The translations under genes were made by a program, and so were the position numbers. A stretch of DNA of 34,156 nucleotides, taken from positions 1-34,156 of the forward strand of contig JAJYTG010000012.1 in NCBI GenBank assembly GCA_021793195.1. Reading direction: 5' to 3'. The notes under the pieces are model-generated. The model was not told where the DNA came from, did not search any database, and saw only the letters and a program-made list of their open reading frames with translations. The DNA comes from Pseudomonadota bacterium (GTDB lineage Bacteria > Pseudomonadota > Gammaproteobacteria > Xanthomonadales > Rhodanobacteraceae). Shown piece after piece: positions 2,236 to 5,197 of this stretch (position 1 is its first letter; each line of letters starts with the position of its first letter).

Positions 2236-4083
2236 ATGAGTGATTTTCCCCGCTGGAAGTACGCCCTGGTGGCGGTGGTGCTGCTGATCGGCATCGTCTA
2301 CGCGTTGCCCAACCTGTTTCCACAGCAACCGGCCGTGCAGATCCAGGCCAACCGCGGCGGCAGGGTCGACACCGCGCTCGAGCAGCGCGTGGCAGGTCTG
2401 TTCGCCAAGGCCGGCGCGCCGGCCGGCAGCCTGGTGCTCAACGGCGACCGCCTGCTGGCACGCTTTCCCAATACCGATCAGCAGCTCAAGGCCTACACCA
2501 CCGCGCGTGACGCGCTGGGCGAGGACTACGTGGTCGCGCTGAATCTCGCCTCGACCGTGCCGCCGTGGTTGCGCGCGATCGGCGCCAATTCGATGCCGCT
2601 GGGGCTCGACCTGCAGGGGGGCGTGCACTTCCTGATGCAGGTCGACAACAAGGCGGTGATGAACCAGCAGATGCAGCGCTACACCGACGACATCCGCGAC
2701 GCGCTGCGCGAGAAGCACATCCCCTATGACGAGGTGGTGCGCATGCCCGAAGGCGTGCGCGTGGTGCTGCGTGCCGCCGCCGATCACGACGCGGCGCTGG
2801 CGGCGATCAGCGCCAACGACCCCGACCTGACCCTGACCACCGCCAGCGACGGCGTCACCGTGACCGCGTCGCTGAAGCCCGAGAAGCTGATCGCGATCGA
2901 GCAGAGCATCGTCCACCAGAATCTCAGCACCCTGCGCAACCGCGTCAACGCGCTGGGCGTCGCCGAACCGCTGATCCAGCAGCAGGGCGCGAGCCGCATC
3001 GTGGTCGAACTGCCCGGCGTGCAGGACACCGCCGAGGCGAAGAAGATTCTCGGCGCCACCGCCACCCTCGAGTACCACGCGGTCGACGAGAGCGTGAATC
3101 CGGCCGAGGCGACCCAGAGCGGCAACGTGCCGCCCGAGGATCGGCTCTACAAGATGCGCGGTGGCGGCTCGATCGTGCTGAAGAAGAAGGTGATCGTCTC
3201 CGGTGACGAGCTGATCGATGCCTCCAGCGGCTTCGACCCGCAGAGCGGCGCGCCCTCGGTCAACATCGAGCTGAACTCGGCCGGCGCCAAGAAGATGCTC
3301 GACTACACCACCCAGAACGTCGGCAAGCGCATGGCGGTGGTGTACATCGAGCGCATCCCCGAGACGCGGATGGTCGACGGCAAGGAAGTGCACACCTCGC
3401 GCACCAGCGAGGAGGTGATCAACGCCGCCACCGTCAACGGCGTGTTCGGCAAGCGCTTCACCACCACCGGGCTCGGCCTGCAGGAGGCCAAGGAGCTGGC
3501 CCTGCTGCTGAAGTCCGGCTCGCTGGCGGCGCCGATGGACATCGTCGAGGAGCGCGTGATCGGCCCCAGCCTGGGTCAGCAGAATATCGTCCAGGGCCTG
3601 CGCGCGGTCGGCCTCGGCCTCGGCCTGGTGCTGCTGGCGGCGGCGTTCTACTACAAGCTGTTCGGCCTGGTCGCCGACATCGCGCTGGTTTTCAACCTGG
3701 TGCTGCTGGTCGCCGTGCTGTCGATTTTCCAGGCCACCCTGACCATGCCCAGCATCGCCGGCATCGTGCTGACGCTGGGCATGGCGATCGACGCCAACGT
3801 GCTGATCTGCGAACGCATCCGCGAGGAGCTGCGTGGCGGATCGACGCCGCTGGCATCGATCCGCGCCGGCTACCAGAAGGCATGGGCGACCATTCTCGAC
3901 GCCAACGTCACCCACCTGATCGCGGCCTTCGGGCTGATGACCTTCGGTTCGGGCTCGATCCGCGGCTTCGCGATCACGCTGGCGGTCGGCATCCTGACCT
4001 CGATGTTCACCTCGGTCACGGTCACCCACGCGATCACCGCGCTGCTGCACGGCGGCCGCAAGCTCAAGACGCTGTCGGTCTGA
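2236..4083 (+). CDS. secD: Protein translocase subunit SecD
   Basis: RND-like inner-membrane protein that, with SecF, uses the proton-motive force to complete protein export on the periplasmic side. The 615-residue length equals that of E. coli SecD. There is an N-terminal membrane helix (about residues 8-27), then the large periplasmic region with GLDLQGGVHFLM (residues 123-134), then a C-terminal block of helices from about residue 455. The GMAIDANVLICERIREEL motif places the proton-relay Asp at residue 519, as in E. coli. The start has GGAAG about 8 bases upstream. secF follows, but with an unusually long 175-base gap filled by a palindromic element. Confidence 0.98.
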   Translation: MSDFPRWKYALVAVVLLIGIVYALPNLFPQQPAVQIQANRGGRVDTALEQRVAGLFAKAGAPAGSLVLNGDRLLARFPNTDQQLKAYTTARDALGEDYVVALNLASTVPPWLRAIGANSMPLGLDLQGGVHFLMQVDNKAVMNQQMQRYTDDIRDALREKHIPYDEVVRMPEGVRVVLRAAADHDAALAAISANDPDLTLTTASDGVTVTASLKPEKLIAIEQSIVHQNLSTLRNRVNALGVAEPLIQQQGASRIVVELPGVQDTAEAKKILGATATLEYHAVDESVNPAEATQSGNVPPEDRLYKMRGGGSIVLKKKVIVSGDELIDASSGFDPQSGAPSVNIELNSAGAKKMLDYTTQNVGKRMAVVYIERIPETRMVDGKEVHTSRTSEEVINAATVNGVFGKRFTTTGLGLQEAKELALLLKSGSLAAPMDIVEERVIGPSLGQQNIVQGLRAVGLGLGLVLLAAAFYYKLFGLVADIALVFNLVLLVAVLSIFQATLTMPSIAGIVLTLGMAIDANVLICERIREELRGGSTPLASIRAGYQKAWATILDANVTHLIAAFGLMTFGSGSIRGFAITLAVGILTSMFTSVTVTHAITALLHGGRKLKTLSV

Positions 4084-4091
4084 GGTCTGGT

Positions 4092-4251
4092 GGCCGGTAG
4101 CGGAAAAATCGCAAGCAGCTCGCTCGGACTGGCCGTGCCGGGCGGGCTCCCCTCACTCGGCCCATAGCGATGGCTATGGGCCTCGCTCCGCAGCCGCGCC
4201 CGACACGCCCATTCCTTCGCGATCCCTCTTCCGCTTTTTCCGTTACAGGCC
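4092..4251. repeat. 160-bp imperfect palindrome (MITE/REP-like) between secD and secF
   Basis: Three nested inverted repeats share almost one centre near 4170. The outer arms at 4092-4115 and 4228-4251 match at 20 of 24 positions and contain CGGAAAAA or its complement. The middle arms at 4134-4148 and 4192-4207 pair around CGTG(C/T)CGGGCG. The core at 4159-4182 is a perfect 10-bp stem, GGCCCATAGC, with a GATG loop. The right outer arm ends seven bases before the secF start, and its AGGCC is the only plausible ribosome-binding sequence. No open reading frame of note lies inside. It looks like a non-autonomous element or a large structured RNA. Confidence 0.75.
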
Positions 4252-4258
4252 GCTAGCC

Positions 4259-5197
4259 ATGGAAATCTTCAATCCGCACAGCAACATCCACTTCCTCAGC
4301 CTGCGCCGCTACAGCATCACCGTGTCGGCGCTGCTGATGGTGCTCGCGATCGGGCTGATTGCGGTGCGCCACATCAACTACGGCCTCGATTTCACCGGCG
4401 GCGTGCTGGTCGAGGTCAGCTACGCCAAAAGCGTGGATACCAACGCGGTGCGCCAGACGCTGGAGTCGGCCGGCTTCCAGCATCCACTGGTGCAGAGTTT
4501 CGGCGGCACCCGTGACTTCACCATCCGCCTGCAGCCGAAGCCCGGCGACAGCAACACCGACCAGACGGCGCGCCTGGTGATGGCGGCCCTGACCGCCAGA
4601 AACCCCGGCGTGACGATGAAGAGCACCAGCTTCGTCGGCCCGCAGGTCGGTGCCGAACTGCGCAACGACGGCGTGGTGGCGGTGATCTTCGTGATCGTCC
4701 TGATCATGCTCTACCTCGGCCTGCGCTTCGAGAAGCGCTTCGCCGTCGCCGCGCTGATCACCGAGGTGCACGACACCGTGCTCACCATCGGTTTCTTCGC
4801 GCTGACCCAGCGCGAGTTCGACCTCACCGTGCTGGCCTCGCTGATGGCGGTGGTCGGCTACTCGATCAACGACAAGGTGGTGGTGTTCGACCGCGTGCGC
4901 GAACTGTTCCGCAACACGCGCCGCGCCGAGCCCGAGGAAATCCTCAACCGCGCGATCAACTCGACGCTGTCGCGCACCATCATCACCTCGCTGTTCACCG
5001 GCATCGCCATGGCCGCGCTGTACCTGTTCGGCGGCCCGGTGCTGCACGGCTTCGCGATCACCATGATCATCGGCATCATCATCGGCACGCTGTCGTCGAT
5101 TTTCGTCTCCAGCCCGCTGCTGCTGTGGCTGGGCGTATCGAAGAAGGACCTGATGCCGGTGACCAGGGAAAACCCCGAGCTGGCGCAGCGGCCGTAG
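4259..5197 (+). CDS. secF: Protein translocase subunit SecF
   Basis: Partner of SecD in the proton-driven SecDF complex. The 312-residue product starts with a membrane helix (about residues 18-37) and has the family signature YGLDFTGGVLVEV at about 40-52. Five further helices follow from about residue 138. The GYSINDKVVVFDRVRE motif carries the conserved Asp205, matching the E. coli SYSIND region. The palindromic element directly upstream could either break or modulate co-transcription with secD. The gene ends in a 94-base gap before the convergent murU. Confidence 0.98.
   Translation: MEIFNPHSNIHFLSLRRYSITVSALLMVLAIGLIAVRHINYGLDFTGGVLVEVSYAKSVDTNAVRQTLESAGFQHPLVQSFGGTRDFTIRLQPKPGDSNTDQTARLVMAALTARNPGVTMKSTSFVGPQVGAELRNDGVVAVIFVIVLIMLYLGLRFEKRFAVAALITEVHDTVLTIGFFALTQREFDLTVLASLMAVVGYSINDKVVVFDRVRELFRNTRRAEPEEILNRAINSTLSRTIITSLFTGIAMAALYLFGGPVLHGFAITMIIGIIIGTLSSIFVSSPLLLWLGVSKKDLMPVTRENPELAQRP

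Follow-up and report, generated by a model that had tools for sequence, protein, structure and literature searches.

The Correia elements of Neisseria (CREE or NEMIS) are described in the available text of PMC2649163 as having long forms of 153-157 bp with inverted-repeat ends, which occur in many copies, are found in transcripts and form a hairpin that is a substrate of RNase III. MITEPsy1 of Pseudomonas syringae, according to the accessible part of PMC3189936, is a short element that duplicates a CTAG or YTAA target, and its transposition has been shown. A preference for the TA in CTAG has been reported for IS630 (Tenzen 1991, cited in the available portion of PMC2170065). In addition, ERIC is a short dispersed element of enterobacteria and vibrios that can affect host transcripts (PMC10969869, available part), and the REP/REPIN sequences are palindromes of 20-40 bp tagged GTAG/CGTC (PMC3733652, available part). 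A different kind of precedent concerns translation: in T4 genes 38 and 25, RNA structure shortens the distance between the Shine-Dalgarno (SD) sequence and the AUG from 22 nt to 5 and from 27 nt to 11 (PMC3014915, available part). Here we describe a palindromic element in a window of 34,156 nucleotides, which is the whole stretch of DNA analyzed. The element appears to be an ordinary MITE whose location is unusual and whose fold may matter there.

In this window, secD (2236-4083; 615 aa) and secF (4259-5197; 312 aa) are open reading frames of the plus strand, as are all the features located below, and carry the Pfam domains SecD-TM1, SecDF_P1_head and SecD_SecF_C in the first case and SecD_SecF_C and Sec_GG in the second. 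A first-pass annotation had placed a palindromic element with a perfect 10-bp core between both genes, and the element proved to be real. A search of 4050-4300 returned three inverted repeats: an outer one with arms at 4087-4115 and 4228-4256 (29 nt, 79% identity), the left containing the terminal inverted repeat TGGCCGGTAGCGGA... and the right ending in ...TCCGTTACAGGCCG plus CTAG; a middle one at 4126-4144 and 4197-4215 (19 nt, 84%); and a core at 4159-4168 and 4173-4182 (10 nt, 100%), which makes a hairpin of 10 perfect pairs with a 4-nt loop (4159-4182). They are nested parts of one nearly full-length imperfect hairpin that fills the secD-secF gap (4084-4258, 175 nt). The predicted fold of this gap has an energy of -99.7 kcal/mol, against -69.2 +/- 3.9 in 200 dinucleotide shuffles of the same stretch (z -7.82), none of which was as stable. 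The extent first given, 4092-4251, was right in location and one base short on each side: comparison with copies elsewhere sets the element at 4091-4252, that is 162 bp here, the commonest length in the family being 160. It was also correct that such gaps are short elsewhere (9-10 nt in nine of the 12 same-genus genomes with a SecF start) and that the right arm comes close to the secF ATG, since it ends six bases 5' of it. Scans of 3950-4350 gave two terminator-like sites, both on the minus strand and none on the sense strand, and no sigma-70 promoter in the element. An intrinsic terminator was considered as an identity for the element and rejected, as the sense strand has no stem that leads into a T run.

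The element belongs to a repeated family. By BLAST, its own genome holds three full-length copies with 89-100% identity (query included) and one 42-base fragment, and matches were found in five of 61 genomes, own included, one of them (G026) belonging to another genus and matching at 78%. Tahibacter aquaticus and T. soli gave 28 and 27 match rows, counting fragments and rows from both strands, and a Chiayiivirga MAG gave eight; the three other genomes in the same comparison gave none. A profile search over the fetched loci resolved 64 non-redundant places, 52 of them full length, and 32 of these 52 measure exactly 160 bp. In an order-wide sample with two candidates scored per genome, matches occurred in at least 10 of 398 genomes and at least eight of 98 genera; four of the 10 genomes had a short match only, although for one of these four, G056, the profile search gave a match over model positions 3-153. 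Full-length copies were also present in another family of the order (f8; genomes G205 and G225), so that we are dealing with a repeat common to different families of this order. A scan with a pattern whose 15 fixed bases gave too little selectivity returned at least 118 stretches, eight of which hold the element by reading; the rest look like chance.

Terminal inverted repeats are common to the copies, some of which have frayed ends, and length and fold are largely constant among them, though pairs go down to 63% identity. There is no transposase gene in the element, and the 162 bp found here are too short for one. We regard it as very probable that the sequence between secD and secF is a copy of a MITE of about 160 bp, which is dispersed and non-autonomous, is palindromic over nearly its full length and inserts at CTAG. 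A name for this family was not found in the open-licence papers searched, and Rfam contained no match to the element. REP/REPIN sequences were rejected as a classification, the unit being about 160 bp with CTAG flanks. Some individual copies show features of their own. A copy in T. soli (L234:2001-2168) has A...T instead of G...C as its outermost bases on both sides, and its flanks provide TAA stops for both convergent genes; a truncated copy in G004 (L301:3145-3244; model positions 1-80) adjoins what by eye is a tRNA-like gene. Also by eye, a CTCRCTC(G/C) motif is present three times in the element (columns 34-41, 66-73 and 97-104 of the alignment described below), and two of its copies lie opposed in an internal loop beside the core hairpin, possibly as a protein-binding site.

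Filled and empty alleles define the target. The secDF site was compared in the 12 same-genus genomes with a SecF start (a 13th, G001, has no SecF orthologue and was omitted). Genomes G000, G007 and G009 are filled, with a gap of 173-175 nt from the secD TGA. The draft genome G004 is empty, reading TGA-ggaCTAGtc-ATG with a gap of 9 nt and a single CTAG, and the eight further genomes have gaps of 9-10 nt. The window's element lies between a left target copy that reads CTGG (4087-4090; CTAG in G007 and G009) and a right copy that reads CTAG (4253-4256). At a second locus, G000 and G004 are filled, with a right CTAG that is unchanged and a left one that has degenerated to CCAG or TGAG, and G007 (aatggaCTAGaacgtc) and G009 (cagcggCTAGaacgtc) are empty, with one CTAG each; the other nine genomes are not comparable there, their alignment beginning 20-29 bases inside. 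At both loci, then, the element was inserted into one CTAG, leaving two. Among the 41 of 52 copies with clean ends (the 11 with frayed ends being omitted), 24 have CTAG on the right, 15 on the left and 11 on both sides. The target is clearly CTAG, and the flanks fit a 4-bp CTAG duplication and a TA duplication within CTAG alike.

The genomic context of the copies was obtained with a crude rule of open reading frame and GC3, so that the counts of placements, stops and classified CTAG sites in this paragraph are approximate. Of 54 copies considered, 24 have co-directional neighbors, 19 convergent and five divergent ones, one is inside an open reading frame and five could not be assigned. A gene runs into 47 of 104 element ends, and 16 of these 47 genes stop exactly at the flank (13 with TAG and three with TAA; 15 of 52 copies). 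At the second locus mentioned above, the CTAG likewise contains the stop codon of the right-hand gene. A preference for stop codons was considered and rejected: as eight of 39 classified CTAG sites that are free of the element are stops too, we claim no preference beyond CTAG itself. The tetranucleotide is strongly depleted in the 257,504 bases of element-bearing loci plus window: 47 sites lie outside the elements, where about 762 would be predicted from base composition. A hand count of the copies between co-directional neighbors, with secDF counted once, gave 12 in the same orientation as the genes and 10 in the opposite one. Given this lack of bias, an RNA role tied to one strand is not supported for the family as a whole, and we do not claim it.

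The element would be mobilized in trans, by a putative DDE transposase related to those of IS630/Tc1-mariner. Transposases with the PF13358 (DDE_3) domain are present in three of eight element-bearing genomes (six rows), and their ends are unlike those of the element: three of the six copies begin with TAGTG, as the element does, but the closest end, in G009, differs at five of 17 positions, so that no IS630 element with shared ends was obtained. Among the matches listed for a 17-base end pattern, with one mismatch allowed, in the 398 order genomes, there was no IS-length element with TGGCCNGTAACGGA ends (matches in 13 genomes; 25 loci among the matches listed were examined), and the mobilizing enzyme is therefore one that we infer. 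End-pair scans of the loci did not yield an IS-length autonomous partner either, and BLAST gave no match in plasmids and one match of 26 bases (E 0.5) in phages. At L255 and L256 in the Chiayiivirga MAG and at L252 in G009 there are IS630-family copies, some 1.16-1.19 kb long and with TAGTGT at their ends, which are candidate distant relatives of the mobilizer.

Regarding the history of the secDF copy, a tree of secD plus secF gave ((G000,G004),G007),G009 with support of 100 at these nodes. The element entered the secD-secF junction in an ancestor that the window's genome has in common with G007 and G009, or did so more than once, and the simplest reading of the tree would be one insertion followed by loss in G004. 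Because G004 is unusually divergent just inside secF (eight differences from G000 in 120 nt, where G007 has only four), recombinational replacement by an empty allele explains this loss as well as precise excision does. In a tree of the element itself, the three secDF copies were not grouped with support, so that the junction may have been entered repeatedly.

The insertion has a consequence for the start of secF. In nine element-free genomes, the secF SD lies just 5' of the ATG, where it either overlaps the secD stop or adjoins it, and pairs with the anti-Shine-Dalgarno (aSD) at -5.7 to -12.0 kcal/mol. The window allele retains it as GAGG at 4082-4085, overlapping the secD TGA (4081-4083), with an aSD pairing of -6.3 kcal/mol, or -6.6 with a longer stretch. 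All three filled genomes keep this left SD (-5.8 to -6.3 kcal/mol), now about 170 nt upstream of the ATG, and pairing of the aSD with the 20 nt directly 5' of the ATG reaches only -2.5 kcal/mol. The element thus separates the ancestral Shine-Dalgarno of secF from its ATG. The first-pass annotation had taken the right arm to carry the only likely ribosome-binding bases of secF; this has to be abandoned, as the AGG of that arm (4247-4249) is weak (-2.5 kcal/mol) and paired in the stem, and the better GAGG is to the left of the element. It had also proposed that folding of the message would affect SecF translation. The fold should indeed matter for SecF initiation, but since GAGG survives left of the element, it need not block SecF and may rescue it.

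How this could occur follows from the geometry of the insertion. The element would be co-transcribed with secDF and would fold into one long hairpin and, CTAG being self-complementary and the element palindromic, the stem closes at 4087:4256. A closed hairpin would hold the displaced SD 3 nt from the ATG along the strand, and opening of the CTAG pairs would widen this spacing to as much as 11 nt. Such a split ribosome-binding site, made by the hairpin, would still allow SecF synthesis, and RNase III processing of the stem may compete with initiation at it. The predicted pattern is that of a split site, with a good SD far upstream, a weak one near the AUG and structure in between. A palindromic element in a palindromic tetranucleotide would be structurally silent in RNA, the hairpin closing at the point of insertion, and could therefore insert between SD and start in a conserved operon gene and leave initiation possible; what the insertion would leave is a folding-dependent switch on the SecD:SecF ratio. 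That a transposon has made a split ribosome-binding site at secF is a reading that we put forward, from a single locus, as possible but somewhat less likely than not.

In the minimum-energy fold, the SD itself is paired, GG at 4084-4085 with CC at 4257-4258, and must therefore be opened. Calculated on naked RNA, in which the stem base escapes the disturbance that ribosomes leaving secD would cause, the predicted cost of freeing the SD (7 nt) and positions -2 to +15 with the hairpin kept is 9.9, 12.0 and 10.5 kcal/mol in the three filled alleles, and that of freeing the longer stretch from -20 to +15 for the proximal site is 27.9, 24.5 and 28.1 kcal/mol, the two sets of costs referring to stretches of different length. 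Eight element-free alleles have predicted costs of 3.9-12.3 kcal/mol; six of them, at 3.9-6.8, are below any filled allele, and G004 has 9.6. The split route is consequently predicted to be near the empty allele in G004, the closest relative, far cheaper than the proximal one and less open than most element-free alleles. Two other copies, L222 and L164, were considered as further split sites and dropped because their orthologues have no evident SD there, L222 having in addition a TATGAT close upstream. The L222 copy (1500-1690, T. soli) has a pmbA/tldD-type gene on one side and a Fur-family gene on the other; its TATGAT is a short distance 5' of the likely ATG, an arrangement also seen in two of five orthologues, and suggests a leaderless promoter at the edge of the element.

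As the main alternative, the same MITE could act chiefly as a double-stranded substrate of RNase III, cleavage parting the secD from the secF message and SecF then being made from a processed message with a weak start; we consider this somewhat unlikely. The long stem in the predicted transcript speaks for it, as does the cutting of Correia elements by RNase III in transcripts reported in the available parts of PMC2649163 and PMC10969869. However, a cut in the stem would put the strong SD on the other fragment and leave secF with the pairing of -2.5 kcal/mol. A plainly inert insertion, just tolerated while SecF is expressed in any case from a start of its own, seems unlikely to us. It agrees with the balanced orientation among co-directional neighbors and with a predicted mean unpaired share around the start that is alike in filled (0.33; G000, G007 and G009) and empty (0.32; G004) alleles, but the better SD is parted from the ATG in three genomes, and SecF is still open in G007 and G009, with 97% and 92% identity to that of the window. 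The first-pass annotation had reasoned that absence from close relatives without effect on the SecF level, together with a lack of other copies, would mark the element as inert; it is absent from the close relative G004, which favors inertness, but other copies do exist.

Whatever its effect at secF, the stem can be followed across the family. An alignment of 40 rows combined the copy in the window with 39 full-length copies out of the 52 (a duplicate of the window copy and 12 frayed copies were omitted), with a mean pairwise identity of 81% and a lowest of 63%. Its consensus stem has 60 pairs, and 89.6% of 2394 cells pair, against 28.7-44.0% when partners are slid by 1-3 columns, a comparison that favors the counted stem because this was taken from the consensus of the same sequences. 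Changes on both sides occur in 21 of the 60 pairs (13.5 in shuffles) and in 90 cells (27.8 in shuffles), and the excess of further pair types is smaller (58 against 51.9; three of 500 shuffles as high), it being noted that cells are sequences and not events and that the shuffles do not keep relatedness. Examples are columns 16-160 in the terminal repeat (G:C and A:U, the 14 A:U cells looking like one subfamily) and, in the core hairpin, columns 78-93 (C:G, A:U and G:C) and 79-92, with changes on both sides. In single-sequence folds, at least 60% of the consensus pairs were recovered for 33 of 40 copies (36 for the outer stem, 29 for the middle and 33 for the core); RNAalifold on the alignment gave 29 pairs only, with local hairpins in place of the middle stem, and its covariation term was only -1.28. 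On this comparison, we read the stem as one that is kept by changes on both sides.

Near-palindromes are known to undergo quasipalindrome correction. Such correction during replication would give changes on both sides without selection on the folded form, and we judge it improbable as what keeps the stem. Against it, the same positions stay mismatched in most copies (A.C at columns 27-150 in 34 of 40, and C.A at 51-120 in 36 of 40). Conservation of at least 90% is no more frequent in unpaired columns (30 of 48) than in paired ones (79 of 120), however, so that inheritance alone could explain the fixed mismatches. Finally, that the stem is a host-built regulatory RNA of secDF, an attenuator or thermometer and not a mobile element, would also accord with changes on both sides, but is very improbable given the copies at many unrelated loci, the empty alleles at their sites and the lack of orientation bias, Rfam match and terminator-like site on the sense strand.

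Returning to the split ribosome-binding site, no report of a MITE between an SD and a start codon was found in the open-licence papers searched. The three filled alleles and the empty one, all in close relatives, form a natural set for measuring the effect of a hairpin between SD and start. If the split site is true, it would explain the survival of palindromic mobile elements inside operons and would show a simple evolutionary route to structured ribosome-binding sites.

In comparison with known systems, the present family resembles the Correia elements in its similar length, inverted-repeat ends and many copies. It differs from them in its host, in end sequences that look different, as judged without alignment, and in that nearly its whole length can pair. 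With ERIC, of 127 bp, it shares being short and dispersed. Its use of CTAG as target is like that of IS630/Tc1-mariner elements, which duplicate TA and, unlike it, carry a transposase, and three of six PF13358 copies in these genomes have the same TAGTG start. MITEPsy1 is likewise short and has a CTAG target, but it measures 100 nt, its ends (GGAAGG...) are like those of an IS5-family element, and full-length pairing is not mentioned in the available text of PMC3189936. As for the proposed effect, T4 genes 25 and 38 offer the likeness of a structure between SD and AUG that gives a working distance, which at secF is predicted only; there, 22-27 nt are bridged by a structure that is not a mobile element, and at secF the bridge would span about 170 nt of inserted element.
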